A stretch of 36,375 nt of DNA from a virus, in IMG/VR virus record IMGVR_UViG_3300049459_000189, positions 1 through 36,375 of that record. One strand, written 5' to 3'. Position 1 is the stretch's first letter; the number at the start of each line of letters is the position of its first letter. The position numbers and the translations under genes are program-made. Below, piece by piece: positions 5,398-31,864 of this stretch. Under the pieces are notes generated by a model. The model worked only from the letters and a program-made list of their open reading frames with translations. It searched no databases and was not told the origin of the DNA.

Positions 5398-5865
5398 ATG
5401 AGCGATTTTACGAAGGCCTACCAAGGCATGATCAAGGTCCATGGCTGGAACGGTACGGCGGCCACGTTGGATATGAAGCGCGCTTCTCTGGAGGCGCGCG
5501 TGTACGAGCTGAATGGCCACGGCATGCGAGTCCCGCTCGCGATGATGATCCAGGCGTATTCGGGTACGACGCTGTTCGCTGAGGCAGTAGCGGCGGCGTC
5601 TGGCGGCGTATTCATCCAGCTACCGGATGCCGGCCCGCTGGATGGCCACGATCTGATGGCGAAATTTCATGAGCTCTATGCCGAGATCGGTGAGCTGTCG
5701 TCGACATATACCGCCGCGATCGCCGACGGCGAAATCGACAAGCGTGAGCGGGCCGAGCTGGAGCACATCGAGCAGAGCATGCACAAGACCATGGCGGAGC
5801 TGATGGGGACCATGTTCCGTGTCTACTGCCGACCACCGGCTGTACTGCCTGCCACGGCCACCTGA
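5398..5865 (+). CDS. Phage regulatory protein, CII/YmfL-like (CP76 family)
   Basis: 155 residues (MSDFTKAYQGMIKVHGWNGT...) with AAGGGA seven bases upstream. The first ~60 residues hold an atypical HTH (NGTAATLDMKRASLEARVYEL), then a region rich in Ala/Gly. The C-terminal helix pair with AIADGEIDKRERAELEHIEQ is characteristic of the CP76/YmfL group of phage early regulators, in which an ADGxI..xE motif recurs. The gene's place, after the Cro-like gene and before replication genes, matches CII. By family analogy it would activate lysogenic transcription; I see no evidence of its target sites. Confidence 0.75.
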   Translation: MSDFTKAYQGMIKVHGWNGTAATLDMKRASLEARVYELNGHGMRVPLAMMIQAYSGTTLFAEAVAAASGGVFIQLPDAGPLDGHDLMAKFHELYAEIGELSSTYTAAIADGEIDKRERAELEHIEQSMHKTMAELMGTMFRVYCRPPAVLPATAT

Positions 5866-9226: not shown

Positions 9227-9979
9227 ATGCCAGTCGATGTGAGGGATGCGATCGCCGCATTAACCGCAACCAGTAGCGCTGGTCAAAAGCAGGTCACGTT
9301 CGCCACCAGGGTGGCGCTGACGCGCACCGCGCAGAAGGCGGCGGCGGCCGAGGTGCACGAGATGCGCGACGTGTTCCGCAACCCGACGCCCTACGCGCTG
9401 AACAGCGTGTTCGTTCAGCCTGCCACCAAGACCAGGCTGGAGGCCACCGTCAAGCTGAAGGACGATGCGACCAAGGCCGTGCCTGCGTCCAAGTTCCTGG
9501 CTGCCCAGGTGAGCGGCGGGCAGCGGCAGCTCAAGCGGTTCGAGAAGGCGCTGACCGCCGCCGGCGCCATGCCCGTCGGCTACCGCGCCGTGCCCGGCAA
9601 GGCGGCCAAGCTGGACAGCTACGGCAACATGAGCAGAGGGCAGATCGTGCAGATCCTCGCCTTCTTCCGCGCCTTTCCTGAGATGGGCTACAAGGCCAAC
9701 ATGACGGACAAGGGCAGGGCGCGTCTGGCACGCGGCAACAAGCGTGTGCAGGGCTTCGCCTACTTCGTTGGCCGGCCGGGCGACCGCCTGCCGCTGGGCA
9801 TCTACCAGCGCGTCAGCTTCGTCGGCGGCACGGCCATCAAGCCGGTGATGCTGTTCGTTCGCTCGGCCGTCTACGAGGCCATCTACGACTTCGAATACGT
9901 GGTCGAGCAGACCGTCAAGAACCAGTTCGCCGACGAGTTCGCCAAGGCCTATGTCGAAGCCGTGGGGAGCGCACGATGA
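9227..9979 (+). CDS. Conserved phage protein before terminase, probably virion-associated, unknown
   Basis: 250 residues with an excellent AAGGAGG site. It contains VTFATRVALTRTAQKAAAAEV, FRNPTPYALNSVFVQPATKT and GYRAVPGKAAKLDSYGNMSRGQ, then IVQILAFFRAF. I recall closely similar conserved proteins in Burkholderiales prophages at the replication/packaging boundary, usually left uncharacterised. No enzymatic motif or membrane segment is visible. The composition (basic, alpha/beta, no Cys) and position suggest a structural or assembly part such as a minor head or tail component, but this is inference. Confidence 0.75.
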   Translation: MPVDVRDAIAALTATSSAGQKQVTFATRVALTRTAQKAAAAEVHEMRDVFRNPTPYALNSVFVQPATKTRLEATVKLKDDATKAVPASKFLAAQVSGGQRQLKRFEKALTAAGAMPVGYRAVPGKAAKLDSYGNMSRGQIVQILAFFRAFPEMGYKANMTDKGRARLARGNKRVQGFAYFVGRPGDRLPLGIYQRVSFVGGTAIKPVMLFVRSAVYEAIYDFEYVVEQTVKNQFADEFAKAYVEAVGSAR

Positions 9980-10720: not shown

Positions 10721-12789
10721 GCAACATGTACGAGGTCGTCAACTGGCAGTCGCAGGAACTCGCTTCCACGCTGGCGCGTGGGCTGGGCAGCTTTGGAGTG
10801 CCGCCGCCGATGACGCTGGAGGAGTGGTCGCGCGAGCATTTCTACCTGTCGAAGGAATCGTCGTACGTGGAGCAGGACTGGCGGCCGTGGCCGTTCCAGC
10901 GCGCCATCATGGCCTGCATCAGCAACGACGACATCCGTTTCATCGACTTCATGAAGTCGGCCCGCGTCGGCTACACGAAAATCCTGCTGGCGGCGATCGG
11001 CTACTTCGCCGAGCACAAGCGCCGTAACCAGGCGCTCTGGCAGCCGACCGACGGCGACAACGACGAGTTTGTCAAGACCGAGCTCGATACCATGCTGCGC
11101 GACGTCAAGGTGATGAGCAAGGCGATGCCGGCCCACATGGCGCGCCACAAGGACAACACGCTGGCGCAGAAGAAGTTCCTGGGCTGCCTGCTGCACACGC
11201 GCGGCGGCACTGCTGCGCGCGCGTACCGCAGGATCTCGGTCGACGTCGCCTTCCTGGATGAGCTCGACGCATTCCTGCGCGACATCGAGAAGGAAGGCTC
11301 GCCGGACAAGCTGGCGGCCAAGCGCGTCGAGGGCGCCACGTTCCCCAAGATGGTCACCGGGTCGACCCCGAAACTGTCCGGCTTCTCGCTGATAGAGGAC
11401 CGCTACAACGCCGCCGACGAGCGATTCAAGTACGCGATCCCGTGCCCGAGCTGCGGCATGTTCCATTCCCTCGCTTGGGGAAAGAAAGACGACAGTACGG
11501 GCTTCAAGTGGCTCGCCGGCGATTCGGCTTCGGTCCGGCATTTGTGCCCGAACCCGGAATGCGCGTTGCTGATCACCCAAGCGGAGTACCTTGCCGTGGC
11601 GGAGCTGGGCCGCTGGCAGAATGCCGACGGCAGCATCACCATCGACGGCGCCGGCATTTTCCGCAACGCGGCAGGCGCCGTGATCGCACCGCTCGATCAC
11701 ATCGCCTTCCATGTGTGGACCGCCTATAGCCCTGTCGCCACGTGGGCGAACCTGGTCGAGGAATTCCTGGAGGCGTTCGAGAAGGCGCTGACGGGCGACA
11801 TCACCAAGCTCAAGACGTTCACGAACACCACGCTGGGCCTGCCGTGGGCGCTGGAGATGGAGAAGACCGACGCCGACCAGCTGAAGGATCGCGCCGACCC
11901 GCACGTCTTCGGCACCGTGCCGCGCGGCGGCCTGCTGCTGCTGGCCGGCGGCGACACGCAGGACAACCGGATCGAGATCACTGTTCGGGCCTACGGCCGG
12001 GGCTGTGAAACCTGGCAGGTCGACCACAAAATCTTCTACGGCAATCCGAACGACGACCAGGTATGGCAGGACGTGGCCGAGTACCTGTTCGAGACCGAGT
12101 TCCCGCACGTCGCCGGCACGAAGCTGAAGATCCACGCATGCGCGATCGACACCCAAGGTCACAACACGCAGGCCGTCTACAGCTTCGTCCACGCGCATAC
12201 CGACAAGAAGGTCTTCGCTGTGCGCGGCCGGTCGGGGCGGGAGAAGCACATCAAGGACGGCGTGTCGCTGGTGGACATCGACTGGCGCGGCAAAACCCGC
12301 AAGCGCGGCCTGAAGCTGTGGCAGGTTGGCACGAACCTGGCTAAGGACCTTATCTTCGGCCGCCTCGGCATCGAGCGCTCCGGCCCGGGCTACATGCATT
12401 TCTCAAAGGACGCGACGGATGAATTCTTCAAGCAAATGGCAGGTGAGGCTCGCGTTGAGCGAGCTACCGCCCACGGAAAGGAATCGCGCTGGACGGCGCT
12501 GCGCAAGCGCGTGGAAGCATGGGATTGCACGGTGTACCTCGTATGGCTCGAAACGCACCTGGACTTGGCGAAGAAGACGGCGAAGTTCTGGGACCAGTTG
12601 GAGGCGGAAGTACAGCCCGCCATCGGCGACCTGTTCAGCCAGCCGATGACGATCAGCGAAACTGTCAAGCCTGAGCCGTCGCCTCCTGCAGCTACGGCGC
12701 CGGCCCGGGCGCCAGTACCGCAGCAAGAACAAAGCCGCGGCGGCAATCGATTCGCCTCCGATGACTGGGCGAGCAGGGGGTTCCGATGA
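10717..12789 (+). CDS. Terminase large subunit, GpA family
   Basis: 690 residues, close to lambda gpA (641). The N-terminal packaging ATPase has a variant P-loop, MKSARVGYTK (79-88), and a Walker B, VAFLDELD (177-184). A four-cysteine zinc-binding stretch follows near residues 245-285 (CPSCGMFH and CPNPEC), then the endonuclease domain with NTTLGLPWALEMEK and HACAIDTQGHNTQAV. It would cut concatemers at cos and drive DNA into the prohead. Ends in a Pro/Gln-rich tail. Overlaps the small subunit and the following Mor-like gene by four bases each. Confidence 0.95.
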   Translation: MSNMYEVVNWQSQELASTLARGLGSFGVPPPMTLEEWSREHFYLSKESSYVEQDWRPWPFQRAIMACISNDDIRFIDFMKSARVGYTKILLAAIGYFAEHKRRNQALWQPTDGDNDEFVKTELDTMLRDVKVMSKAMPAHMARHKDNTLAQKKFLGCLLHTRGGTAARAYRRISVDVAFLDELDAFLRDIEKEGSPDKLAAKRVEGATFPKMVTGSTPKLSGFSLIEDRYNAADERFKYAIPCPSCGMFHSLAWGKKDDSTGFKWLAGDSASVRHLCPNPECALLITQAEYLAVAELGRWQNADGSITIDGAGIFRNAAGAVIAPLDHIAFHVWTAYSPVATWANLVEEFLEAFEKALTGDITKLKTFTNTTLGLPWALEMEKTDADQLKDRADPHVFGTVPRGGLLLLAGGDTQDNRIEITVRAYGRGCETWQVDHKIFYGNPNDDQVWQDVAEYLFETEFPHVAGTKLKIHACAIDTQGHNTQAVYSFVHAHTDKKVFAVRGRSGREKHIKDGVSLVDIDWRGKTRKRGLKLWQVGTNLAKDLIFGRLGIERSGPGYMHFSKDATDEFFKQMAGEARVERATAHGKESRWTALRKRVEAWDCTVYLVWLETHLDLAKKTAKFWDQLEAEVQPAIGDLFSQPMTISETVKPEPSPPAATAPARAPVPQQEQSRGGNRFASDDWASRGFR

Positions 12790-13067
12790 TGCAGGACCAG
12801 CGGGGCGACATCGTGAGCGCGATGATCGAGGAGGTGCGGCAGGTCCTCGGCGGCACCATCGTGTCCGCCGAGGCGGAGAAGGCGCTGGAGGAGAAGCTGC
12901 GTCTAGACTGGGGCGGCCAGGCGGTGTATGTCAAGAAAGTCGCGGTCGACGTGGAAGCGCGCGCCCGGGATATCCGCACCCGGTACAACATGGTCAACCG
13001 CCGCGAGCTGCAGGCCTATTGGAACATCAGCCGCGGCCAGTTCTACAAGATTCTGCGCGGCGGATAG
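12786..13067 (+). CDS. Mor-family transcription activator
   Basis: 93 residues; AGGGGG five bases before the ATG, overlapping the terminase stop. The region LRLDWGGQAVYVKKVAVDVE carries the D-x-GG-x-VY motif of Mor/C activators of phage Mu and relatives. The end, IRTRYNMVNRRELQAYWNIS then RGQFYKIL, is the family's HTH (R..I...y....r.EL...y.is...iykI). Mu Mor and C bind dyads next to sigma70 -10 elements and switch on middle and late genes. This one is shorter than Mu Mor (129 aa), lies in the packaging operon, and stands 14 bp before the first of two copies of a dyad element, its likely target. Confidence 0.8.
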   Translation: MMQDQRGDIVSAMIEEVRQVLGGTIVSAEAEKALEEKLRLDWGGQAVYVKKVAVDVEARARDIRTRYNMVNRRELQAYWNISRGQFYKILRGG

Positions 13068-13081
13068 GCGGCGAATCGACA

Positions 13082-13138
13082 GTCTCCATTTTCCCTAGAA
13101 ATGAGACTCGGTGGCCGGTAAGGTGGGGTATCCATATT
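13082..13138 (+). promoter_or_regulatory. Late promoter module, copy 1 (imperfect 29-bp dyad)
   Basis: The 29-bp element at 13082-13110 starts GTCTCCATTTT and ends GAAATGAGACTCG, an interrupted dyad of GTCTC(C)ATT against AATGAGAC. Exactly 39 bp separate it from the ATG at 13150. CATATT (13133-13138) is a possible -10 and AGGAA follows. A second copy lies at 17005-17033 with the same 39-bp offset. Confidence 0.75.
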
Positions 13139-13149
13139 AGGAATGCCCC

Positions 13150-13383
13150 ATGACCACCGCCACCGACATGCTTGCGAAATACCTCACCGCCGAGGTCTCC
13201 ATCCTTGAGGGGAAGGAAGTTTCATTGGGTGACCGCCGCCTGCGGATGGAAGACCTGGACATGGTTGTCGCCGGCCGCAAGGAATGGGAGCAGCGTGTGG
13301 CGCAAGAGGCGGGCACCGGCGCAGGCCAGCCAACCATCGCCGGGGTAGGCTTCATGCTGGCCAACTTCTCGGGCCAGGGCTGA
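13150..13383 (+). CDS. gpW-like head-tail joining protein
   Basis: 77 residues: LAKYLTAEVSILEGKEVSLG followed by a short hairpin and a long helix (MEDLDMVVAGRKEWEQRVAQ), the same helix-hairpin-helix plan as lambda gpW (68 aa), which docks under the portal. It sits between terminase and portal exactly as W does. Start follows AGGAA. Only two bases separate it from the portal gene. The sequence-level match is modest; position adds much of the weight. Confidence 0.8.
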   Translation: MTTATDMLAKYLTAEVSILEGKEVSLGDRRLRMEDLDMVVAGRKEWEQRVAQEAGTGAGQPTIAGVGFMLANFSGQG

Positions 13384-13385
13384 TC

Positions 13386-14933
13386 ATGGGCGCCACGCCG
13401 AAGGTCGAGCTCAATACGTTCGATCGCATCATCTCCTTCTTCTCGCCGATGGCGGGCCTGCAGCGCATGCAGGCCAGGCGCGTCCTCAATCAGTACGAGG
13501 CGGCCAAGCCATCGCGCCTGCGCCGGGGCACGAAGGATGTTCGATCGCCGGACGCCCAGGTGCAGCAGGGCGCCGTCACGCTGCGTGCCCTGGCGCGCAA
13601 CCTGGAGCAAAACCACGACATCGCGCGCGGCGCGCTGCGGACACTGGTCAACAACGTCATCGGGCCCAATGGCATCGGCATCGAGCCGCAGCCGCGGCGC
13701 GCTGACGGCACCATTCACGAGGAATACGCGCAAGCCTTGCGCAACGCCTACCGCGACTGGTGTCTGACGCCCGAGGTAACCCACCGCCATCATTGGGCGA
13801 AGGTGCAGCGCCTGGTGTGCAACACTTGGTTCCGCGACGGCGAGTGCTTTTCCCAACGCCTGATGGGTACCGTCCCGTTTCTAGATCACGGCACTCGCGT
13901 GCCGTATTCGCTGGAGCTTATCGAACCGGACCTGGTGCCGATGGATTACCACGATCTGAGCCGAGGTATACAGCAGGGCATCGAGCGCAACACCTGGGGC
14001 CGGCCGACCGCGTTCTGGTGCTACAAGGAATTCCCGTCGGGCAGCAGCTGGTCGAAGGCCAGCATGGAAGTCAAGCGTATCCCGGCCGAGCGCATGCACC
14101 ATATCGCCTCCATTGATCGGATCGGGCAGATGCGCGGCGTGACCCTGTTCGCGAGCGTGATAACGCGCTTGGAGGACATCAAGGATTACGAGGAAAGCGA
14201 ACGCATCGCCGCGAAGGTGGCGGCATCGCTGACCGCATACGTCAAGAAAGGATCACCGGACATGTACGGTGACGCGTCATTTGCAGGTGCTTCGACGACA
14301 CCGCCCGGTACTGCACCTGAACTTGGCATGGCGCCTGGGATGATCATCACTGGTCTGTCTCCCGGCGAAGAGATCGGCATGATCGATTCGAATCGCCCCA
14401 ATCCGAACCTGATCACCTTCCGTGGCGGCCAGCTGCGCGCCGTCGCGGCCGGAGTTGGCGCGAGCTACTCCAGCCTGGCGCGCGACTACGACGGCACCTA
14501 CTCAGCCCAGCGCCAGGAGCTGGTAGAGCAGTGGGTGCACTACGCCGTGCTGACGGACGAGTTCGTCGGCCAATACGTGCAGCCAGTTTGGCAGGATTTT
14601 GTGCTGACGGCACACCTGTCGGGTGTCGTTCCGCGCCCGCGCGATGTCGATCCGGATAGCGCAGATGATGCGCTATTCGTCGGGCAGTCCATGCCCTGGA
14701 TCGACCCGCTGAAAGAGGCGAATGCCTGGCTGGCGCTGGTGCAGGCCGGCTTCGCGAGCGAGGTCGAAGTGATGCGCAAGCGTGGCGCCAACCCCCGCGA
14801 CGTGCTGGAGCAGATTAACGCGCACCGCATCGCTTCCGGCGAAAAGGGACTGGTCTTCTCGTCTGACTACGCCAATGTGGCTAAGAATCCGCCGGCCGCT
14901 CCAGCGTCGGCACAAAACGATGAAAAATCGTAA
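13386..14933 (+). CDS. Portal protein, lambda gpB family
   Basis: 515 residues from the ATG at 13386 (MGATPKVELNTFDRIISFFS...), comparable to lambda gpB (533). Landmarks are the N-terminal wing with RNNLEQNH-like segment (ARNLEQNHDIARGALRTLVN), NVIGPNGIGIEPQP, DGECFSQRL, the crown-stem region with HHIASIDRIGQMRGV and the tunnel-loop region SYSSLARDYDGTYSAQRQEL, typical of the lambda portal group. It forms the dodecameric DNA gate at the capsid vertex. A longer upstream in-frame extension lies inside the gpW gene and is rejected. Confidence 0.93.
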   Translation: MGATPKVELNTFDRIISFFSPMAGLQRMQARRVLNQYEAAKPSRLRRGTKDVRSPDAQVQQGAVTLRALARNLEQNHDIARGALRTLVNNVIGPNGIGIEPQPRRADGTIHEEYAQALRNAYRDWCLTPEVTHRHHWAKVQRLVCNTWFRDGECFSQRLMGTVPFLDHGTRVPYSLELIEPDLVPMDYHDLSRGIQQGIERNTWGRPTAFWCYKEFPSGSSWSKASMEVKRIPAERMHHIASIDRIGQMRGVTLFASVITRLEDIKDYEESERIAAKVAASLTAYVKKGSPDMYGDASFAGASTTPPGTAPELGMAPGMIITGLSPGEEIGMIDSNRPNPNLITFRGGQLRAVAAGVGASYSSLARDYDGTYSAQRQELVEQWVHYAVLTDEFVGQYVQPVWQDFVLTAHLSGVVPRPRDVDPDSADDALFVGQSMPWIDPLKEANAWLALVQAGFASEVEVMRKRGANPRDVLEQINAHRIASGEKGLVFSSDYANVAKNPPAAPASAQNDEKS

Positions 14934-14944
14934 GAAAGGAAATC

Positions 14945-15199
14945 ATGGTCAAATCAGTCGTCAATAACTCCGGCGCCGGATACGTTCATCCGGATGATCC
15001 AAGCCTGCGAATCCAAATGGTCGCTGTGGTCAATCCTGTCGGACTTCCTGACCTGGGAAGCGGTACGCATGCATATGGGTACGATGGCAGCGGCAATCTG
15101 ACCACTGACACCTGGACAGTCAATGCCAATGTGTACCTGAAGACCTTCAGCTACACCGCAGGTAATTTGACCGGCGAAACGGATTGGGTGAAGCAATGA
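14945..15199 (+). CDS. Small protein preceding the tailspike
   Basis: 84 residues with AAAGGA upstream. The sequence is beta-rich with YGYDGSGNLTTDTWTVN and YTAGNLTGETDWVKQ, a motif I know from small proteins encoded just before phage tail fibres, and superficially like YD/RHS repeats. Its stop overlaps the tailspike start by four bases, so the two are a translational pair. It may form the adaptor or chaperone for the spike; function not established. Confidence 0.65.
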   Translation: MVKSVVNNSGAGYVHPDDPSLRIQMVAVVNPVGLPDLGSGTHAYGYDGSGNLTTDTWTVNANVYLKTFSYTAGNLTGETDWVKQ

Positions 15200-16902
15200 G
15201 TTTCGGCCAATTCATTAAGTACGCAATCATCCTCCGCCTTGCAAAGTGGGCATCCGATGGACTGAACTTGATTGCGCCTGGCGGAACGATTCTTGGTGGC
15301 CTCGATGTAATGGCCTATCCGCTTACGTCGGACGGAATCGACGCTGCGATCGCAAAGGTAGTTGCTTCTGGAAAGCCTGGGCGCGTACGCTACTTTGCAG
15401 CGCCGTATGCCGTCTCACGCAATCATCCGCTGATCTCGGGTGTCAGCCACATAGCCGTTCCGCCTACATTGCAGTTCACGGGCAATGTTCCGGATGCTGA
15501 TTTTTCGGTCGCAGGCGGCACGGTTTTCAATCTAAGCGCTGGTGTAACTGGATTTCCTTTCAATAACGTCGATAAGGCAAATAACGAGGCTAACTCCGCG
15601 ACGTTTGGCCTGACTAATGTCACTATCTATGGCATAACTTTTGTGGGTGGTCTGCGGGCGATTGATATAGGCGCTATGCGCGCCATGGGTACGCTCTGGT
15701 GCCGCTTCGACGAGCTATATGCCTTCGACCAGACCGGCGACTACCAGTTCGACTTTAAGAACTTCCAACACTGCACTTTCCGGAATATCTACACCTCGAC
15801 ACAATTGACGTCTGGTGGGGGAATTCGTCTCGGCAATATGTTGGATTCGAATGTTCTGCTGCCTGGTAACAGCACAATAGAAGGTGAAATTTATAGTTAC
15901 TGTAAGAATCGCAAGAATCGCTCAGTGGTCATTGAGTGCGCCGGCCCGACCAATGGAGGAAGTGCGCCAAACTTGAATCAGATTAAGGTTTCTGGCAGGC
16001 TGCAAGGTAATCGGTATCAGGCATCCGGAACGCCCGATCCTATCAGTATTACGACGACCAATCTCAGCTCGACGCTTTCGGTCACAAATGCGGGGCAATT
16101 TGATCTGTGCCAGATAGGAATGCCAGTAGGCTGGGACGTTGCGCCTGCCGGGTTTACGGCTGGCATAGCCTACTTCGTGCTTAGCCGAGACACGCAGGCG
16201 CAGACAATTACTCTTGGTGAAAGCCCCTACGATACAGTGCCGGTCACGCCGACTAGTTCGAATACCTACACAGGACGTATCTCCGGATATCCGGCAATTG
16301 AAATCAAGTCGGCTGCTGGTTGCGTCATAAAAAATTCTGACTTCGGGCAGTTGGATGCCGAAGCGTATGGAAACGTGTGCGCAATTTACATTGCAAAAAC
16401 GCGGGGATGCCAAGCGCACATTGCCGAAATCATGACGTCCTACAGCTACTCCGTCGCAAATGTACCGCCCGCAAACTCGTTAGGCACTGCACTGGTCTGC
16501 CGAGACGCGGAGATCGGTCTTACCTACAACGGTGCATCGAATTTTACGCAAGACATATCGGGGAATTGGGGCTTTAATAATTGCCGCAATCTGACTGGGG
16601 GGGCGTTCCTCTTATCGTCTACGGCGAACTTCCGCCTTGACGCCTCATGGAATGGGCGAAAGGTATATTGGACTGGAAACTCCACTACGATGACGGTTAC
16701 GGCTCCCATCAACCTTCCGAAAGGTTTTGGCTTGGAGTGGGTAAACAACGATCCTGCTGCGATTGTTACCTTCGCCATTGATGGCGGCGGCGCCATTCGG
16801 AGTCGGAACGGTTTGCGCTCACTTGCCGGTCAAGGTACAAAAGTTGTCCTGACCAACATCAGTAACAAAATCTATTCACTCAGCGGTGATACACAAGTCT
16901 AG
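15196..16902 (+). CDS. Tailspike / right-handed beta-helix receptor-binding protein
   Basis: 568 residues from the ATG at 15196. The N-terminus has a hydrophobic helix (FGQFIKYAIILRLAKWA) and then the spike body begins with YPLTSDGIDAAIAKVVASGK, the DG-x-DDTxA-like opening of beta-helix tailspikes. Repeating short strands rich in Asn, Gly and Thr (FGLTNVTIYGITFVGG, FKNFQHCTFRNIY) continue to a C-terminal region, ITAPINLPKGFG onward, that likely trimerises. It should bind and perhaps cleave a surface polysaccharide. Its coding sequence is clearly less GC-rich than the flanking head genes. Its place between portal and protease-capsid gene, not in the tail region, marks it as an inserted module. 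Confidence 0.8.
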   Translation: MSFGQFIKYAIILRLAKWASDGLNLIAPGGTILGGLDVMAYPLTSDGIDAAIAKVVASGKPGRVRYFAAPYAVSRNHPLISGVSHIAVPPTLQFTGNVPDADFSVAGGTVFNLSAGVTGFPFNNVDKANNEANSATFGLTNVTIYGITFVGGLRAIDIGAMRAMGTLWCRFDELYAFDQTGDYQFDFKNFQHCTFRNIYTSTQLTSGGGIRLGNMLDSNVLLPGNSTIEGEIYSYCKNRKNRSVVIECAGPTNGGSAPNLNQIKVSGRLQGNRYQASGTPDPISITTTNLSSTLSVTNAGQFDLCQIGMPVGWDVAPAGFTAGIAYFVLSRDTQAQTITLGESPYDTVPVTPTSSNTYTGRISGYPAIEIKSAAGCVIKNSDFGQLDAEAYGNVCAIYIAKTRGCQAHIAEIMTSYSYSVANVPPANSLGTALVCRDAEIGLTYNGASNFTQDISGNWGFNNCRNLTGGAFLLSSTANFRLDASWNGRKVYWTGNSTTMTVTAPINLPKGFGLEWVNNDPAAIVTFAIDGGGAIRSRNGLRSLAGQGTKVVLTNISNKIYSLSGDTQV

Positions 16903-16926
16903 CCACTGAGGCAGCAATTCAATAAC

Positions 16927-16950
16927 GCCGCCTTCGGGCGGCTTCTTCAT
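16927..16950 (+). terminator. Rho-independent terminator after the tailspike
   Basis: Stem GCCGCC (16927-16932), TTCG tetraloop, GGCGGC (16937-16942), then TTCTTCATTTC. The exceptionally stable UUCG loop and T-rich tail fit an intrinsic terminator. It isolates the tailspike cassette from the capsid gene, which restarts from the second late promoter module. Confidence 0.8.
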
Positions 16951-17004
16951 TTCAATTTTGGGACAACGCCAACGGAAATGAACTCGATTCCGATGCAATA
17001 TTTT

Positions 17005-17072
17005 GTCTCCATTTTACGTAGAAATGAGACTCGTCAAAACGGAAACTATGCGTACCGAATAAGGAACGCATA
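17005..17072 (+). promoter_or_regulatory. Late promoter module, copy 2
   Basis: The element at 17005-17033 matches that at 13082-13110 in 26 of 29 positions; the only differences are in the three to four bases at the centre of the dyad. It again ends exactly 39 bp before the ATG, with AAGGAA positioned identically. A TATGCG or GAATAA sequence could act as -10. Placed immediately after a terminator, it is almost certainly a promoter for capsid and tail genes. Confidence 0.8.
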
Positions 17073-19145
17073 ATGTCCGCACCTACAGCACAACAAGCAG
17101 AACCAGCGAAGTGGTACGCCATCCGCGCCAACGCCCGCCCACCAGCTGGCGTGGTCGCGGCGGCGGCTGCCGAGATCCTGATCTACGGCGATATCGGTGA
17201 GAGCTGGTACGGCGACACAGTCGCCGCCAAAGATTTCGTACGCGAGCTGGCCGCGCTGGACGCTGACCAGATCACGGTGCGCATCAACAGCTACGGCGGT
17301 TCCGTCACCGACGGCATCGCCATCTTCAACGCGCTGCAGCGGCACAAGGCGACGGTCACCACGATCGTTGACGGCATCGCCGCTTCGGTGGCTAGCCTGA
17401 TCGCGATGGCCGGAGACAGCATCGAAATGGCTGAAAACGCGCTGATGATGATCCACGCTCCTTGGGTTGACTATACCTGGGGTAACGCCGTGGATTTGCG
17501 GGAGCAGGCCGACATGCTCGACACCTACGCGGCCTCGATGGCCACCAGCTACGCCGTTCGCTCGGGCGACAAGGCTGCGGCTCTCGTGCTCCTCACCGAC
17601 GGCAAAGACCACTGGTATACCGCGCAGGAAGCGCTCGACGCCAATCTGATCGACTCCGTTGTCGCGGCCCTGCCGCTAGCCGCCTCGGCGCAACTCAACG
17701 GCCCCATCAAGGCGCGGTACGCATCATTCCCGCGCTCAGTCACCCCGGCGGCTGCTGCCGCGCTTCAACCCACCATCACTCCCAAGGAGAGCACCGCCAT
17801 GACCGTAGTCACCACACCAGCCGGCACCGCCGACACCGCCGCAATTCAGGCCGCAGCAACTGCCGCAGCGACGGCCGCGCTGGCCGCCGACAAAGATCGC
17901 CGCGCCAACATCGCAGCCGCCTTCGCCAAGTTTGCCGGCGTGGCCGGCATGCCGGAAATCCAGGCCGCATGCGTCGAGGACCAGCAGTGCACCGTCGAGC
18001 AGGCAAACACCAAGATTTTGGCGCAGTTGGGCAAAGATGCGTCGCCGGTCGCCGGCTCGCACATCATCACCCTGGAAGACTCGCGCGATAAATTCCGCGC
18101 CGGCGTCACTGCATCGATTCTGGGCCGTGCTAGCCTGGACAAGGACGACCGCGCGAACAACTACCGCAGCTTCAGCCTGATGGACATTGCCCGCGAGTGC
18201 CTGGCGCATTCCGGCGTCAACGCCCGCGGCATGAGCAAGATGGATCTGGTGGCCGCCGCCTTCACGCATACCGGCAGCGACTTCCCGCTGCTGCTGGCCA
18301 ACGTCGCCGAGAAGGCGATGATGAAGGGCTACGACGAAGCGGAAGAAACCTTCCAGCTGTGGACATCGGCCGGCAGCCTGGGCGACTTCAAGCCCGGCAA
18401 GCGCGTGGACCTGAACACGTTCCCGACGCTGGCGAACGTTCCGGACGGCGCGGAATACAAATACGCCGACATCGGCGAGCGCGGAGAGACGGTGCAACTG
18501 GCGACCTACGGCAAGCTGTTCTCGCTGACCCGCCACACCGTCATCAACGACGACCTGAACGCCTTCACCAAGATTCCGAAGGCCATGGGCCGCGCCGCTA
18601 TTCGCACCATCGGCGATCTGGTCTACGCGATCCTGACCGGCAATCCGACGATGGCCGACGGCGTGGCGCTGTTCCACGCGACGCACGGCAACCTGCTGAC
18701 CGGCTCGGCGATCAGCACCGGCTCCGTCGACGTCATGGGCGTGGCGATGGGCACGCAGAAGGACGCGACCGGCTCGACCCTGAACATCAACCTGGCCAAG
18801 ATCCTGGTGCCGCGCGCCCTGCGTGGTACGGCGAACGTGGTGCGCGACAGTGAATTCGAAGTCGGCGCCGCCGCCAAGAACAACACGGTGCCGAACTCCG
18901 TGCGCGGCACCTTCGAGGTGATCGCCGATGCACGCCTGGATGCAGCCTCCGCAACCACCTGGTACGGCACCGCCGACCAGTCGATGCACGACACCGTCGA
19001 GGTCAGCTACCTGGACGGCAACCAGACCCCGACGCTGGAGCAGCGCGAGGGCTGGCATGTCGACGGCGTCGAATTCAAGGTGCGCATGGACGCCGGCGTC
19101 AAGGCGCTGGATTTCCGCACCATGCAGAAAAACCCGGGCGCGTAA
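17073..19145 (+). CDS. ClpP-like prohead protease fused to major capsid protein
   Basis: 690 residues. Residues ~33-210 are a ClpP/S14-type protease: INSYGGSV (71-78), nucleophile Ser105 in DGIAASVASL, His128 in MMIHAPW, and an Asp expected in the helix region near 140-180. After an Ala/Pro linker (~220-270), the C-terminal ~400 residues are an HK97-fold capsid subunit resembling Mu gpT-type coat proteins: MMKGYDEAEETFQLW, GSLGDFKPGKRVDLNTFPTL, YGKLFSLTRHTVINDDLNAF and LFHATHGNLL. An in-frame ATG (17799, residue 243) has AAGGAG nine bases upstream, so the capsid part alone is probably also made in excess, as in nested protease/scaffold genes. Confidence 0.9.
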   Translation: MSAPTAQQAEPAKWYAIRANARPPAGVVAAAAAEILIYGDIGESWYGDTVAAKDFVRELAALDADQITVRINSYGGSVTDGIAIFNALQRHKATVTTIVDGIAASVASLIAMAGDSIEMAENALMMIHAPWVDYTWGNAVDLREQADMLDTYAASMATSYAVRSGDKAAALVLLTDGKDHWYTAQEALDANLIDSVVAALPLAASAQLNGPIKARYASFPRSVTPAAAAALQPTITPKESTAMTVVTTPAGTADTAAIQAAATAAATAALAADKDRRANIAAAFAKFAGVAGMPEIQAACVEDQQCTVEQANTKILAQLGKDASPVAGSHIITLEDSRDKFRAGVTASILGRASLDKDDRANNYRSFSLMDIARECLAHSGVNARGMSKMDLVAAAFTHTGSDFPLLLANVAEKAMMKGYDEAEETFQLWTSAGSLGDFKPGKRVDLNTFPTLANVPDGAEYKYADIGERGETVQLATYGKLFSLTRHTVINDDLNAFTKIPKAMGRAAIRTIGDLVYAILTGNPTMADGVALFHATHGNLLTGSAISTGSVDVMGVAMGTQKDATGSTLNINLAKILVPRALRGTANVVRDSEFEVGAAAKNNTVPNSVRGTFEVIADARLDAASATTWYGTADQSMHDTVEVSYLDGNQTPTLEQREGWHVDGVEFKVRMDAGVKALDFRTMQKNPGA
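17784..17801 (+). promoter_or_regulatory. Internal ribosome binding site and start for free capsid protein
   Basis: AAGGAG (17784-17789), nine bases, then ATG (17799-17801) in the frame of the 690-aa fusion. Initiation here yields a 448-residue product starting MTVVTTPAGTADTAAIQ, lacking the protease. A strong ribosome binding site inside a gene is unlikely to be accidental at this domain junction. Confidence 0.65.
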
Positions 19146-19155
19146 CCGGCGCGCC

Positions 19156-19176
19156 ATCGCCGGCGGCGCCGGCGAT
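19156..19176 (+). other. Strong stem-loop after the capsid gene
   Basis: Eight-bp perfect stem ATCGCCGG/CCGGCGAT with a five-base loop, 10 bp after the capsid stop and without a T-run. It probably shields the abundant upstream mRNA from 3' exonucleases or partly attenuates readthrough, rather than terminating fully. Confidence 0.55.
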
Positions 19177-19203
19177 CACCGACTCAATCAATAGGAGCGA
19201 CTC

Positions 19204-19533
19204 ATGTCGAAGAACTACATTCAAGAAGGCGATGTACTGGACTACGCCACGGGCGGCGCTGCCGTTGCGTCCGGCGCCGTGGTGCTGATGGGTAAGCGTA
19301 TCGGTGTCGTGCTGCGGGATATCCCGGCAAACAGCACCGGCAGTGCGAGCGTCACCGGCGTCTGGTCGATCGCGAAGCTGTCCACCGACGTCATCGCCCA
19401 GGGCGACCTGGTGTACTGGGATGCCGGCAACAGCCGCCTGACGTCGACCGCCGGCGGCAACACGCTGGCCGGCTACGCGGCATATGCGGCCGGTAACGGA
19501 GTCACCACGCTCAACACCAAGATCAACGCCTGA
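19204..19533 (+). CDS. Capsid decoration/cement protein, DUF2190
   Basis: 109 residues with AGGAG seven bases upstream. MSKNYIQEGDVLDYATGGAA, AVASGAVVLMGKRIGVVLRD and GDLVYWDAGNSRLTSTAGGN are the hallmarks of DUF2190 proteins: a beta-barrel-like fold with GD-x-(V/I)-x-x-x at the start and YW near the end. In other phages these are found in virions next to the coat gene. Expected to stabilise the expanded capsid. Confidence 0.85.
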   Translation: MSKNYIQEGDVLDYATGGAAVASGAVVLMGKRIGVVLRDIPANSTGSASVTGVWSIAKLSTDVIAQGDLVYWDAGNSRLTSTAGGNTLAGYAAYAAGNGVTTLNTKINA

Positions 19534-19535
19534 TC

Positions 19536-19838
19536 ATGTTCGACACGCTCGAAGCCAGGATGAACAGCGTTGCGATGAAAAAGCTCGCCAACGCGATCGC
19601 CATCATCGCTGGCGTCAATGTGCTGGTCATCTTCGATGCCGAATACAAAGCCGGCATGGTGGGAGTGACGGGCATGGGCGCGGCGTCGCCGCAAATGGTG
19701 ATCAGCAACGCCGATGTGCCCGACGACTTTATCGACAGCCAGATCCAGATCAACGGCGCCAACTGGACCGTCGTCGATCGCCAGCCGGACGGCGCCCTGC
19801 CGACTGGCCTGACCCTGATCCTGCTGGAGAAGGCATGA
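19536..19838 (+). CDS. Head-tail joining protein (FII-like connector)
   Basis: 100 residues: MFDTLEARMNSVAMKKLANA, NVLVIFDAEYKAGMVGVTGM, then FIDSQIQINGANWTVVDRQP and GLTLILLEKA. A helix followed by a small beta barrel with W-x-V and a hydrophobic last strand matches the phage head-tail joining group that includes lambda gpFII. It starts two bases after the DUF2190 stop and overlaps the next gene by four bases. Confidence 0.75.
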   Translation: MFDTLEARMNSVAMKKLANAIAIIAGVNVLVIFDAEYKAGMVGVTGMGAASPQMVISNADVPDDFIDSQIQINGANWTVVDRQPDGALPTGLTLILLEKA

Positions 19839-20278
19839 CGACCGCGCAGCGCCAGATCGCGCTGGCCGTGGTTGATGCGCTGAAGCTCGCGGGCGTCGCC
19901 GGCGGCAAGGTCTACGCCTGGCGTACCCGGGCCATCGGTATTGACAGCCCCACCGGCGTGGTGGTGCGCCTGACCCGCAGCACGTCGTTGCTGGCGTCCA
20001 TCCAAGGTGGTCGCACCGAGTGGCGTACGTTGCTGCAGGTCGAGTGCTACGGGCGCAGCGTGGGCGGCCAGCCTGACGAGGAGTGCGACGCCGTTGCCGC
20101 GCAGGTCTTCGCAGCGCTTGCCGGGGAGCCCACCCTGGGCGGCCTGGCGATGGATGTCGAGCCGATGGAAGGCGACACGCTGGGCTGGGATGTCGACGAA
20201 CTCGATACCGGGCTGGGATGCATCACCGCGAAATTTATTGTTTCACACCAAACCATAGGAAGGACGCTCACACCATGA
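19835..20278 (+). CDS. Tail terminator protein (gpU-like)
   Basis: 147 residues from the ATG at 19835, overlapping the previous stop. TAQRQIALAVVDALKLAGVA, RLTRSTSLLASIQGGRTEWR, LLQVECYGRSVGG and GCITAKFIVSHQT show the alpha/beta plan of minor tail protein U: an N-terminal helix, the strand with VxCYxR, and a last strand with CITAxFxVxHQT. By analogy it caps the finished tail tube and joins it to the connector. A longer in-frame frame upstream overlaps two genes and is not used. Confidence 0.8.
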   Translation: MTTAQRQIALAVVDALKLAGVAGGKVYAWRTRAIGIDSPTGVVVRLTRSTSLLASIQGGRTEWRTLLQVECYGRSVGGQPDEECDAVAAQVFAALAGEPTLGGLAMDVEPMEGDTLGWDVDELDTGLGCITAKFIVSHQTIGRTLTP

Positions 20279-20484
20279 GTTCCGGAAAAAATACCAAGCC
20301 GGGCGCCAGCGACGTGCCCATCGATCGTGCCGGCGAGGCAGCGCTGGCCAGCGCGCCAGTCGTGCACGAAGAGCCAACCGAGGGGGGCAGCTACAGGCGC
20401 CACCCAGCCACCGGCGTGCTGACCAAGGTGGTGCCGGTCGCCGCCGTCGTCGCAACCGAACCCGAACCCACCGCACAGGAGTAA
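20275..20484 (+). CDS. Small phage structural-module protein, unknown (69 aa)
   Basis: MSSGKNTKPGASDVPIDRAG... is disordered and rich in Ala, Pro and Glu, with one ordered motif, GGSYRRHPATGVLTKV. Short proteins with a GSY-RxxxTGxLxxV motif are common between the tail terminator and tail tube genes. The start overlaps the previous stop (ATGA). Possibly a small assembly factor. Confidence 0.6.
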   Translation: MSSGKNTKPGASDVPIDRAGEAALASAPVVHEEPTEGGSYRRHPATGVLTKVVPVAAVVATEPEPTAQE

Positions 20485-20486
20485 TC

Positions 20487-21458
20487 ATGGGCCGCCTCAT
20501 CCGCAAGACCGCCATTCTGGCGAAGATCGAAACCACCTACGGCACCGATGCCATTCCCACCGGCGCGGCCAACGCGCTGGTGGTCAGCAACCTGAGCATC
20601 AACCCGCTCAACGCCCAAAACGTCGACCGCGCCATCATCCGCGCTTACTTGGGCGCGTCCGAGCAGCTGGTCGGCACCAACTACGTGGAGATGGGTTTCG
20701 ACATCGAACTCGTCGGTTCGGGCATGCTCGGCGAGGCGCCGGCATGGGGGCCGCTGATGCGCTCGATCGGCTTCGCTGAAACCGTGACCGAGGATACCCG
20801 TGTGGATTACACGCCAGTGTCGGACGTGTTCGAGTCCTCGACGATCTACTGGTACGACGACGGCGTGCTGCACAAGGGCCTCGGCGCCCGCGGTACCGCG
20901 ACGATGGACCTGACCGTGGGCCAAAAGCCGGTCATCTCGTTCAAGTTCGTGGCCATCAACGGCGGCATCGCAGCGGCGGGCAACCCCGCGACTACGCTGA
21001 CCGCATGGCGCGTGCCGCAGATCGTCATCGATGCCAACTCCGGCAACCTGACCTTCGGCGCCACCCATGCGGCGGTCGTGGCGCCGGTGCTGGCCGGCGG
21101 CACGCCATATCCGAGCCAGGGCCTGATGATCGACCTGGGCATCTCGGCGCCGTTCGAGCCGCTGCTGGGCGAGGAGTCCGTGCCGATCACCGACCGCCAG
21201 ATCACCGGTTCGATCAAGCTGAAGCAGACCGCCGCTGAGGAGGTGGCGATGTACGCGGACGTCCTGGCGACGACCAAGCGCAGCATCGGCCTGGTCCACG
21301 GCACCGTCGCAAACGACAAGGTACTCGTCTTCATGCCTTCCGTGCAGCTGACCGAGCCGACCAAGGAGGAGATCAACGGCTCGCGCCTGATCGGCTACAA
21401 GCTGCGCGCCATCCCGGTCTCCGGCAACGACGAGCTGCGCATCGTCACCAGTTTCTAA
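20487..21458 (+). CDS. Major tail tube protein
   Basis: 323 residues. The opening, MGRLIRKTAILAKIETTYGT then DAIPTGAANALVVSNLSINP, is a tail tube signature (K-x-x-x-x-x-KxExxYGxD), followed by beta-rich segments (GFDIELVGSGMLGEAPAWGP, YWYDDGVLHKGLGARGTATM) and a terminal beta domain (RLIGYKLRAIPVSGNDELRI). It is longer than lambda gpV (246 aa), with room for a surface domain. The position, immediately before the G/GT chaperones and tape measure, agrees. Confidence 0.88.
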   Translation: MGRLIRKTAILAKIETTYGTDAIPTGAANALVVSNLSINPLNAQNVDRAIIRAYLGASEQLVGTNYVEMGFDIELVGSGMLGEAPAWGPLMRSIGFAETVTEDTRVDYTPVSDVFESSTIYWYDDGVLHKGLGARGTATMDLTVGQKPVISFKFVAINGGIAAAGNPATTLTAWRVPQIVIDANSGNLTFGATHAAVVAPVLAGGTPYPSQGLMIDLGISAPFEPLLGEESVPITDRQITGSIKLKQTAAEEVAMYADVLATTKRSIGLVHGTVANDKVLVFMPSVQLTEPTKEEINGSRLIGYKLRAIPVSGNDELRIVTSF

Positions 21459-21464
21459 ATCTCC

Positions 21465-21478
21465 GGGCCCGAGGGCCC
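21465..21478 (+). other. GC stem-loop between tail tube and chaperone genes
   Basis: GGGCC-CGAG-GGCCC, five GC pairs with a tetraloop, no T-run. It may lower expression of the chaperone and tape measure relative to the tube protein, or stabilise the upstream mRNA. Weak on its own. Confidence 0.4.
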
Positions 21479-21493
21479 TCATAAAGGAAAGTC

Positions 21494-21835
21494 ATGTCCA
21501 AGAAATATCTGCTCGCCATCAGCGATGTCGTACACGTTCCGGTCTGGGTCAAGATCGCCGATGGCGAAGGCAAGGAGAAAGACTACAAATTCAGCCTCGT
21601 CTGCAACCGGCTCGGCGCCGAGGATCAGGCCGAGAAGTTCGGCGTGCTGAGCCCGCGCGACTTCCTGATGCAGGAAACCACCGGCTGGTCCGGCCAGCGC
21701 CTGGTGCTCAACGACGACAAGACCCCTGCGGACTTCTGCGAGGACGCCTTCGCGGCCATGCTGGACATCCAGGGCCTGACGATTGTCGCCTTCAACGCCT
21801 ACATGAAGGCCGTCAACGCGGTGGAAAAAACCTAG
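21494..21835 (+). CDS. Tail assembly chaperone (gpG-like)
   Basis: 113 residues with AAAGGAAAG upstream. MSKKYLLAISDVVHVPVWVK is beta-rich, then YKFSLVCNRLGAEDQAEKFG and DDKTPADFCEDAFAAMLDIQ, a compact alpha/beta fold seen in phage tail assembly chaperones. The frame ends ...GAA AAA ACC TAG. Ribosomes that slip back one base in the six-A run at 21825-21830 continue in the -1 frame to 22197, making a 234-residue G-T fusion. In lambda, G and GT bind the tape measure and tube subunits during assembly and are absent from the mature tail. Confidence 0.85.
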   Translation: MSKKYLLAISDVVHVPVWVKIADGEGKEKDYKFSLVCNRLGAEDQAEKFGVLSPRDFLMQETTGWSGQRLVLNDDKTPADFCEDAFAAMLDIQGLTIVAFNAYMKAVNAVEKT

Positions 21836-22197
21836 CCTGGGTCGCGCGGTGCGCTGCGCTCGGGCAGATTGAATCGCCTGTGCAGCGTGACGAGGAGCGG
21901 TCGGAGCTGGATGAGGCGCTAGCCAACTTTGGCCTGATTGCGGTCCAGGCGGACGAGGTGCTGGAGCCACTCTACCTGTGGCCCGAAAACGTCCCAAGCT
22001 GGAATTTGTTCCAGTCGGTCATGACGCAGTGGGTGGTGAGCATGGACGGCGCGGTCGGCCTGCACTACCCCAGCGTCGAGAGCGTGATGAGGATGTGGCG
22101 CATCAAGCCACGCGACCAGCGGCGCAAGTTGAGAGAAATCCAGGTAATGGAGAGGGCCACCCTGAAGGCGTGGCGGGAGCAAAGGGAAAATGGCTGA
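21829..22197 (+). CDS. Frameshift extension of the tail chaperone (gpT-like, DUF1799-like)
   Basis: The -1 frame is open from the slippery run onward (NLAWVARCAALGQIESPVQR, then DEERSELDEALANFGLIAVQ, ...). There is no ATG, and the only possible internal start, GTG at 21880, has no ribosome binding site, so expression as part of a G-T fusion is by far the likeliest. Residues such as LWPENVPSWNLFQSVMTQW match the small DUF1799-type tail proteins known as frameshift products. It overlaps the tape measure start by eight bases. Confidence 0.8.
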   Translation, partial: NLAWVARCAALGQIESPVQRDEERSELDEALANFGLIAVQADEVLEPLYLWPENVPSWNLFQSVMTQWVVSMDGAVGLHYPSVESVMRMWRIKPRDQRRKLREIQVMERATLKAWREQRENG

Positions 22198-25100
22198 AAC
22201 ACGGGTAGTGATCACGGCGCAGGCGAACCAGGCGATTCAGGAGTTTGAGCGCCTGCGTGCCTCCGGTACCGCATCGCTGCAGCAGCTCGGCGCCGGCGCC
22301 ACGCAGCAGTTGGGCCGCACAACGGTGTCGGCCGCGCAGACCGCTGCGGCGCTGCGCCAAGTTCCTGCCCAATTCACCGACATCGTCGTTAGCCTTCAGG
22401 CCGGCCAGGCGCCGTTGACTGTTCTGTTGCAGCAGGGCGGCCAGCTGCGCGATATGTTCGGCAGCGCTGGCGGCGCGGCGCGGGCGCTGGGTGGCTATGT
22501 AGTTGGCTTGGTGAACCCATTCACCCTGGCCGCCGGCGCCGCCGCGGCGCTAGCCTACGCGTACAGCGAGGGCAGCAAGGAGGCGGATGCCTATAACAAG
22601 TCCATCATCATGTCCGGCAACGTGGCCGGCACCACCACGAATCAGCTGGCAGACATGGCGCGCGGCATCGGCGCCAGCGTCGGTACGCAGTCCCAAGCCT
22701 CGGCCGTGCTGGCCTCTCTGGTCGATTCCGGCAAGGTCTCCGTAGACAATCTGAAGAGCTTCGCCCATGCAGCAGTCGCCGCGCAGGACGCTGGCGCGCG
22801 CAGTGCGGAGAAGATGGTGGAAGACTTCGTCGCGCTCGGTAAGGCGCCGGTCGATGCAAGTATTAAACTGAACGAGCAGTATCACTACCTGACCGCGTCG
22901 ACCTACGCGCAGATCAAGGCGCTGCAGGACCAAGGCAAGGAAGACGAAGCTGCCGCACTGGCGCAGCAGACCTGGGCGGCGGCGGCGGAGAAGCGCTCGG
23001 CGGATCTGGTCGCCAGCCTTGGGACCGTGCAGCGGGCTTGGAAGGCGACTGGCGATTTCGCCAAGAGCGCATGGGACAAGTTCCTGGATTTGGGTCGCAA
23101 GGACACCGATACCCAGATTGTGCAGAAATCGGAATCTCGAATTGCCGAACTCCGGAAACAGTTGCCGGTGGCTCAGGATCTCGATCGCGTGTCGCCGCGG
23201 GCCGGCAACGTCAAGGCCATCCAGAATGAAATCACCGCCCAACAGAAACTGATTGATGGCGCCAAGGCTAAAGGCGAGGCTGAACGTTGGAACGCCCAGG
23301 TAATTGCCGACAGCGCCAAGCTGGAGGAGGCTGGCGTCAAATGGAAGCAGGAAGGTGTCAAATACCTGTCCAAGGAAGCGCAGCTGCAAATCGAGCTGAC
23401 CCGCCAGAAGCAGCTCGGCCTTGATGCCGGCGAATCCGACGATGCGATCAACAAGCGCCTGGCAAAGGTGCGACAGAATTACAGTGCGCTGAACAATGCG
23501 GGCATGGCGGCGCTTGAGGCGCAGCGCGCGCTCGATCACGAAATGCTGTCTGGTAACTTGGCTGCGCTCGAAAGCCGGCATAAACAGGGCCTGATCAGCG
23601 ACCAGAAATATTACGCCGACAAGCGCGACATGCAGCTGCAGGATCTGGATGGCGAGGCGCAGGTCATTAAGAAGCAGATCGACCTTGCCGGTGGAAAAGC
23701 CGACCTGAGCGAACGTGCGAAGTATGTTGGCGCGTTGGCCGTCCTGCAGCAGCGCCGGAAAAACCTCATCCAAGATGCCGACGATTCTATCAATGAATCA
23801 TCGGTTGCCGCGACGAAGGCCGTGGCCAACCAAGCCAACGCCTGGACTGCCGCTTCCGCATCCGAGCAGCAGCAATTACAGGATGAAGTGTCGCTCTTCG
23901 GTAAGACGGCGGAGGCGCGCGCGATCGCGGTAGCGCAGATCAAAGTGGATACCGAGGCCCGTCAGCTCCTAGCTACTTGGCAGAAGCAGGGCCATGTCTT
24001 CACCGCGCAAGATATCGCCGACCAGAATGCTGCGACCGAAGCACGCAAGGGAAGTATCGCCGCGATCATGGGTGAACAGCAGGCACGTGCCGGTGCCGAG
24101 CAGCTGCGCGTGGAAAACCAAAAATATGCGATCGATTCCATCAGCGACGATCGTCAGCGTGCGGCCGCACGTCTGGAAGTCGAAGCGGACGTCTGGCGGC
24201 AGCGTATCGCCCTGGCTACCGAAGGTTCAGCTGCGCAGCGCGCATTGCAGTCGCAATTCGATACGTGGTACGCAAATCAGTCGGCCCGTGCCCTGACCGA
24301 AGTGGATCTGACCCGCGCGACCGAAGTGCTGAAGGTCATGGAGTCGGTCGACGCGGCCGCGCGCCAGGCCGCCTCCGGCATGGAGGCGTCGTTTGGCAAG
24401 GTCGGCGCTGCGATCGGGGGCCTGACCACGGCGCTGACCGGTTACGGCGCCGCGCAGGCAGCGATCACCGCGCAACTGGCGGCCGACATCACAAATTCGG
24501 GTGGCAATCAGGCGAAGATCTACAGGGCGCAAAGCCAGGCCGCATCGGCATCGGCCCAGGCGCAGGTCAAGTCGTATGGCGACATGGCCGGCGCCGCGAA
24601 AGGCTTTTTCAAGGAGAACACCGCCGGCTACAAGGTGCTGCAGACCACCGAGAAGGCGTACCGCGCCTACGAGATGGCGCTGGCCCTGGAGTCCATGGCC
24701 AAGAAGATCCTGTTCAAGGAAGGCGAGGTCGCGGCGAACGTCGCGCTGAACGCCACCAAGGTCACCGGCGAGGCCGCCAGCACGGCGGCGTCGACCAGCC
24801 TGGCTGCGACCGAGGCCAGCGCTTGGGGCGTGACCGCAGTCGTCAAAGCGCTTGCGTCGCTGCCGTTCCCGGCGAACCTCGCCGCCGGCGCCGCAACTCT
24901 GGCGGCGGTGATCGCCATCGGCGCAAAGGTAGTCGGGAGTTTCGGTGGCGGCAGCGGCGGTGGCATGACCGCGGCTGACGTGCAGAAGGCCCAGGGCATG
25001 GGGTCGGTTTTCGGTGACAGCAGCGCGAAATCCGATTCTGTTCGTCGCTCGATCGAGATGCTGAAGACGAATTCGGACAGCATGCTGCCGATCAACCAGG

Positions 25101-28761: not shown

Positions 28762-28764
28762 TGA

Positions 28765-29622
28765 ATGGCAAATTGTATGTTGGGCTTTCCGAATCGGACC
28801 GACGCTGCGGTATTGAGCGGTGGTTCCTGGGCTGCGACCTTGCCGCTATCAAATTTGCAGAGTCGGGTAATTGGTAAAGTCGCGCGCAGTGTCAATACAG
28901 CACCGGCCAGCACCAAGTTCGACATCGACCTCGGCGCCGGAACAAAAAATCAGGCGCTGAGCTTGCGCAACCACAACATCACACTGGCTGGCATCTATCG
29001 GATCATGGCATCGGCATCGCCGTCGTTCGCGGTGCTCTCGTACGATTCTGGCTGGCTCGACGTCTGGCCCGTGGTCTACCCATGGGGAACTCTGGAGTGG
29101 GAGGACGATAATTTCTGGAGCGGAAAATACACCGTCGAGCAGACGCAGGGCTACACCACCGAGTTGGATCACATACTGCCAATTCTAAAAGTGGCGCGGT
29201 ACTGGCGCGTCGAAATCAGCGACCCTACCAATCCCGATGGTTACCTGCAGATCGGCAGGCTCTTCATCGGGCCGGTCTGGCAGCCCAAGCTCAACATGAG
29301 TTATGGCGCTTCGATCGCATGGGAGACGAAGACCGGTGTCCAGGAAGCGATTGGTGGTGCCGAATATTTCCAGCAGCGCACGCCGTACCGCGTCGCCAAG
29401 TTTGCACTCAACTGGATGGATCAGGATGAGGCATTCTCCCAGGCCTTCGAATTGCAGCGACGCGCTGGCGTCGATCAGGAGGTGCTGTTCGTTCATGACC
29501 CTGCCGACACCGTACACGCGCTGCGCCGGCGCTTCCTCGCGCGCATACGTACGCTGAGTTCAATCGAATACCCCTATTGCAATATCAACAGCGCAGCATT
29601 TGAAGTGAAGGAACTCCTGTAA
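28765..29622 (+). CDS. Tail tip protein, unknown, galactose-binding-like N-terminal region
   Basis: 285 residues beginning MANCMLGFPNRTDAAVLSGG, SWAATLPLSNLQSRVIGKVA. The N-terminal ~150 residues (STKFDIDLGAGTKNQALSLR, NHNITLAGIYRI, ARYWRVEISDP) fit a jelly-roll discoidin/galactose-binding-like fold. The C-terminus has AFELQRRAGVDQEVLFVHDP. This protein commonly follows the previous one in related prophages. A role in the distal tail and host-surface contact is inferred from fold and position only. Confidence 0.7.
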   Translation: MANCMLGFPNRTDAAVLSGGSWAATLPLSNLQSRVIGKVARSVNTAPASTKFDIDLGAGTKNQALSLRNHNITLAGIYRIMASASPSFAVLSYDSGWLDVWPVVYPWGTLEWEDDNFWSGKYTVEQTQGYTTELDHILPILKVARYWRVEISDPTNPDGYLQIGRLFIGPVWQPKLNMSYGASIAWETKTGVQEAIGGAEYFQQRTPYRVAKFALNWMDQDEAFSQAFELQRRAGVDQEVLFVHDPADTVHALRRRFLARIRTLSSIEYPYCNINSAAFEVKELL

Positions 29623-31451: not shown

Positions 31452-31453
31452 CC

Positions 31454-31837: not shown

Positions 31838-31846
31838 CCCCCCCCC
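31838..31846 (+). repeat. Nine-base poly-C tract
   Basis: A run of nine C bases immediately after the stop of the fibre-assembly gene and before the ribosome binding site of the lysis operon (GAAAGGG). Such homopolymers slip during replication; here it lies between genes, so length changes would alter spacing rather than frame. Confidence 0.7.
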
Positions 31847-31864
31847 ACCATACGAAAGGGCGCC

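Follow-up and report, generated by a model that had tools for sequence, protein, structure and literature searches.

The viral sequence analyzed here (36,375 nucleotides of the IMG/VR record IMGVR_UViG_3300049459_000189, hereafter the window) very probably carries its own switch for late gene expression, in which a 93-aa protein of the Mor/C family would activate the structural genes through two copies of a dyad element, each set in a predicted promoter (P1 and P2). The preliminary description had proposed a Mor-like activator encoded ahead of its targets, two late promoter elements, and a lambda-type head; comparison with related phages bears out each of these, and from them we infer activation. 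The case for a late switch draws on a -10 box at fixed spacing, the late genes found downstream of every classified element (72/72), the genome-wide specificity of the element, the concerted drift of its copies, and gene order shared with phage Mu. The relevant features, all on the + strand, are as follows.

12786–13067 (+): candidate Mor-family late activator gene, 93 aa (Pfam, PHROGs, and homologue profile)
13082–13107 (+): dyad copy 1 of promoter P1, GTCTCCATTTTCCCTAGAAATGAGAC, conserved in relatives; proposed activator site at about −49 to −24
13119–13124 (+): predicted −10 hexamer of P1, TAAGGT, with a predicted start at ~13131; its A+13/T+17 are invariant (29/29)
13139–13143 (+): Shine-Dalgarno AGGAA of gpW, ahead of the ATG at 13150
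13150–13383 (+): gpW head-tail adaptor, first gene of the P1 operon (phrog_118, E 1.5e-17)
13386–14933 (+): portal protein (PF05136, E 8.7e-97)
14945–16902 (+): accessory cargo from portal to terminator, an 84-aa and a ~570-aa ORF with no confident family
16927–16942 (+): intrinsic terminator hairpin, GCCGCCTTCGGGCGGC, with a T-rich tail, closing the P1 operon
17005–17030 (+): dyad copy 2 of promoter P2, GTCTCCATTTTACGTAGAAATGAGAC, with a homologous copy 5′ of the protease gene in relatives
17042–17047 (+): predicted −10 hexamer of P2, GAAACT, with a predicted start at ~17054; GAAACT or CAAACT also occurs in P2 of the closest relatives
17062–17066 (+): Shine-Dalgarno AGGAA of the protease-capsid gene, ahead of the ATG at 17073
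17073–19145 (+): ClpP-like protease/major capsid fusion, first gene of the P2 operon (phrog_133, E 4e-205; PF00574, PF25209)
19204–33668 (+): rest of the proposed P2 operon, comprising decoration, head closure, tail, tape measure, endolysin, and Rz-like genes

Mor-Family Gene and Its Proposed Role

The characterised members of the Mor/C family are activators. The 93-aa product scored 26.8 bits against the Pfam family PF08765 (curated cut-off 24.9) and matched phrog_532, a late transcriptional activator family in PHROGs, with an E-value of 1.9e-6; a profile built from 12 homologues further matched the Mu Mor structure (1rr7; E 3e-4). The window protein lies only just over the Pfam cut-off, and this small margin counts against our preferred explanation. 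Among relatives, PF08765 scores were 36.4 bits in L003, 53.6 bits in L175 (E 2.6e-14), and 24.2 bits, marginally below the cut-off, in L004, and the Mor-like proteins of L011 and L013 also stayed below it. The AlphaFold model of the window protein was of low overall confidence (pTM 0.43), and the top five Foldseek hits to this model were Mu C/Mor, but weak (E 0.08–0.9).

From what the sequence displays (the dyads, the fixed −10, the terminator, the gene order, and their conservation), we propose the following course of binding, activation, and timing. The activator gene would be expressed together with the terminase genes, and a Mor dimer, or a pair of dimers, would bind the dyad and recruit or activate the host sigma-70 polymerase at a weak −10 hexamer 11 bp downstream. 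P1, which comes immediately after the activator gene, would drive gpW, the portal, and the cargo up to the terminator, and P2 would drive the protease-capsid gene and then everything downstream, that is, the tail and lysis genes. Given that a third dyad copy is absent from the window, the endolysin and Rz-like genes (32152–33668) are probably also driven by P2. The slot occupied by cargo in the window (14945–16902) holds a two-gene cargo in L003 and L013 and structural-looking genes in L008, and may serve for accessory structural genes. Upstream of the terminase genes, and outside the proposed Mor-controlled operons, positions 9227–9979 encode a protein with matches to minor tail protein families (phrog_1924 and, weakly, PF06763).

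Dyad Element and −10 Box

The dyad has the form GTCTC-N16-GAGAC, with half-sites 21 bp apart, and its two copies are the sole matches in the window even when up to three mismatches are allowed; every dinucleotide shuffle yielded 0 matches. Earlier described as a 29-bp dyad with two copies, at 13082 and 17005, the element keeps both copies, but its conserved length is 26 bp, the remainder being a shared flank (TCG). The 39 bp originally counted from the 29-bp element to the start codon agree with the 42 bp that separate the end of the 26-bp dyad from the ATG in both copies, and the activator ORF does end 14 bp before copy 1. The AGGAA motif also lies at an equal offset in both copies, as had been pointed out, but is only the ribosome-binding site; it is not conserved with the element across relatives and was ruled out as a component of it.

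The preliminary description overlooked a −10 hexamer that follows the dyad in both copies with a constant spacing of 11 bp. In an alignment of 29 copies from 14 phages (window included) anchored on the dyad, all 29 had A at +13 and T at +17, the next best offset reaching 7/29, and the pattern held in a non-redundant set of 14 copies with less than 50% shared downstream identity. In the sigma-70 −10 hexamer, these two bases are the most conserved. Since this −10 signature is invariant in its spacing while the distance from dyad to ATG varies in relatives (42–58 bp), we regard the dyad as part of a promoter. It would then be centred at about −36.5 and overlap the −35 region, where TAGAAA (dyad bases d15–20) matches the −35 consensus at 4/6 positions with a 17-bp spacer. 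No sigma-70 consensus promoter was found in 12700–19300, and a weak −10 preceded by a dyad, with no consensus −35, is as seen in Mu-type late promoters. A −10 at the Mu spacing (19–24 bp after the dyad) was ruled out, as columns there were not conserved. In Duganella-type phages, the −10 reads TA(A/C/G)NNT at P1 and (G/C)A(A/C)ACT at P2, which suggests fixed differences in promoter strength that distinguish the portal operon from the capsid operon. In the more distant Mor phages L063, L068, and L066, the start codon of gpW or the first gene lies 6–8 nt after the −10, and their late mRNAs would have little or no leader.

Distribution among Related Phages

Mor proteins with 49–68% identity to that of the window were found in viral contigs and Duganella prophages, and the dyad lies between Mor and gpW in nearly all of them. 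Four whole Duganella genomes of 6–7 Mb each contained exactly two sites (≤3 mismatches), both within the prophage. To test the −10 prediction on new data, we searched all viral contigs with a pattern restricted to the dyad bases; it recovered 81 distinct elements, of which 72 carried A+13/T+17 (next best offset 15). The nine exceptions comprised six reverse readings of near-palindromic copies, two elements in L173 that show the pattern on the opposite strand, and one in L160 from which it is absent, such that 74 of 75 real elements carry the −10 box once reverse readings are excluded.

The genes 3′ of all 72 classified elements were late genes: 32 gpW, 30 protease/capsid (28 protease and two matching phrog_4523), and 10 holin/lysis-like. 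The latter are small membrane-protein genes that read as holins of lysis cassettes, one matching the phrog_198 holin family and others phrog_1024 (no annotated function), with the call in L144 made by sequence likeness only and the neighbouring endolysin/Rz genes recognised by eye, not by profile. As these viral-contig counts include near-duplicates, we gave preference to the non-redundant tests.

In L030 and L073, where a gene of 378 aa separates Mor from gpW, the dyad is found immediately 5′ of gpW; it stays with gpW and therefore belongs with the operon start rather than with the 3′ end of the activator gene. The inserted gene in L073 (7469–8605, minus strand) appears to be independent cargo. 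L013 and L011, very divergent phages recovered by the DNA pattern alone, share the architecture of the window, and their Mor-like genes (18–26% identity) retain a WGG..Y..K signature. L011 carries three dyad copies. We had considered L005, L007, and L009–L011 as AT-rich repeats, which was rejected, as these phages have a Mor-like gene and as many as three dyad copies. The third dyad of the L011 phage (L076, 16133–16330) lies directly behind Mor and has the best −10 (GATAAT); a terminator and then the next dyad follow after ~130 bp, and its only product would be a short transcript containing a tiny ORF, ATGAACTGTTAA. The element is present in L008, in whose partial record Mor was not found, a further point against our preferred explanation.

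The module recurs in Oxalobacteraceae prophages and other viral contigs, the layout of activator and twin promoters being shared by dozens of further phages whose heads are lambda-type. No L011/L013-type sequence turned up when 398 genomes of the phylum were searched by pattern. When named phages were searched by tblastn with proteins of the window and L011 and of the L059, L063, and L066 types, no lambda-type relative was obtained; the searches returned nothing, or Mu-like phages, a Salmonella prophage fragment, and unannotated scaffolds. A literature search found papers on Mu Mor and C, none of which described a module of activator and twin promoters.

Proposed Link between the Element and the Mor Protein

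The two copies within a phage resemble each other more than they resemble the copies of other phages (10 phages, p = 0.003), and in five divergent lineages the true pairing of copies ranks 1 of 120. In G238, both copies have the right arm GGGAC. Among viral contigs, a GTGAC version of the dyad was matched in L175 alone, which has two copies of it, both followed by CATCAT as the −10. They lie behind a Mor protein with LNERQIRRIV as its recognition helix, versus an SR/GR-type helix in the GTCTC phages. Because half-sites change in both copies together, and in L175 along with the recognition helix, we infer that the Mor protein itself reads the dyad; these concerted changes are the best computational evidence for it.

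The same observations bear on the idea that the dyad is a repressor operator, with the prophage repressor or the Mor-like protein covering the −35 of two weak promoters. A position of −49 to −24 is a usual one for a repressor, and the 4/6 match of TAGAAA would supply the −35; however, no consensus promoter was found alongside these poor −10 boxes, the family of the adjoining gene has activators as its characterised members, and half-sites and Mor helix change together in L175. We consider a repressor operator improbable. An RNA hairpin in the leaders of the gpW and protease mRNAs, acting in translation control or antitermination, would account for an inverted repeat near a start codon at a nearly constant distance in many copies, yet what is constant is the distance to the −10-like box and not to the ATG. 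In L063, L068, and L066, moreover, the ATG lies so few nucleotides past the −10 that a transcript from this promoter would lack the dyad, which for these three excludes a hairpin in their own leader. The bulged hairpin was dropped on the fixed spacing and these near-leaderless relatives, and we hold any such RNA role to be very improbable.

The least probable explanation, for which we see hardly any room, is that the dyads are recombination boundaries for the exchange of cargo modules. Variable cargo does separate the two copies or, in L073, Mor from copy 1, but the copies are in direct orientation with essential genes between them, the invariant −10 lies outside the repeat, and two copies ~1.9 kb apart exist without cargo in G238 and G242.

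Comparison with Phages Mu and Lambda

A Mor/C-family activator is common to the window and to the C-dependent late promoters of Mu (Plys, PI, PP, and Pmom). The order of elements also corresponds: C is directly followed by Plys in Mu and the Mor gene by P1 in the window, and both PI and P2 lie after a terminator and before a capsid protease gene (gene I in Mu), placing copies behind the activator gene and before the protease as in Mu-type late control. Both sets of promoters have a weak −10 and no good −35. CAAACT, the usual −10 of many P2 promoters, also occurs at Mu PI (AF083977, 17977–18043; L106, 3978–4044), where it is likely the −10. The Mor/Pm pair of Mu shares the PF08765 family and the arrangement in which mor is followed directly by Pm with its dyad upstream of the −10.

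In contrast, promoter geometry differs. The C site of Mu is of the TTAT-N6-ATAA type and ends 24 bp before the −10 at Plys and Pmom, and across Pm, Plys, and Pmom the gap is 22–24 bp, versus 11 bp after the GTCTC-N16-GAGAC site in the window; the 26-bp dyad is not a Mu-type short dyad with a 6-bp spacer well upstream of the −10. The Mor element of Mu spans 16 bp and is centred at −43.5 (PMC4287176, PMC4390567), whereas the window dyad, 26 bp long, lies at about −36.5. As the dyad is thereby ~7 bp closer to the −10, the Mu mechanism is not simply transferable. Solved complexes of Mu C and Mor (9l0x, 9l0y) contain four activator chains each according to the PDB listing. Mu also has four late promoters, compared to two in the window and three in some relatives, its head genes are Mu-type where those of the window are lambda-type, and its Mor controls middle genes, whereas the window candidate would control structural genes. 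The label of a Mu-type activator grafted into a lambdoid phage, therefore, holds for the protein family, the gene order, and Mor-type control of a lambda-type head, but not for the promoter geometry, nor as a one-off event, since the module is widespread.

In lambda, the Q protein, an antiterminator acting at one promoter, switches on genes for the head, the tail, and lysis in a lambda-type phage. The proposed targets in the window are similar, and no Q-like antiterminator was found among the subset of window ORFs scanned (the small ones in part). The window also encodes a CII-like regulator (5398–5865; PF06892, phrog_101). Lambda CII uses direct repeats, and its half-sites straddle the −35 region, as do those of the window dyad, two helical turns apart; by analogy, the dyad may resemble the CII site in geometry, although CII is unrelated to Mor and the window repeat is inverted.

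Implications for Late Gene Control

Our analysis suggests a variant of Mor/C-dependent late control that is widespread and apparently undescribed, a Mu-type late control that would govern phages with lambda-type heads. A broader reading, to which we give an even chance, is that these are members of a large, so far undescribed group of temperate phages, lambda-type in their heads, in which a Mor-type master activator has replaced Q antitermination and acts at two to three late promoters, by a mechanism unlike that of Mu Mor or Mu C given the differing promoter geometry (a dyad over the −35, with half-sites two turns apart that probably face the opposite side from sigma region 4).

The proposed pair of regulator and site would offer a testable handle on the late genes of a broad set of uncharacterised prophages, and the naturally diverged pairs (GTCTC, GTCCC, and GTGAC) would provide material to decode DNA recognition in the Mor family. 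The element may further serve to locate late operons, and the cargo inserted in them, in metagenomic phages from DNA alone.
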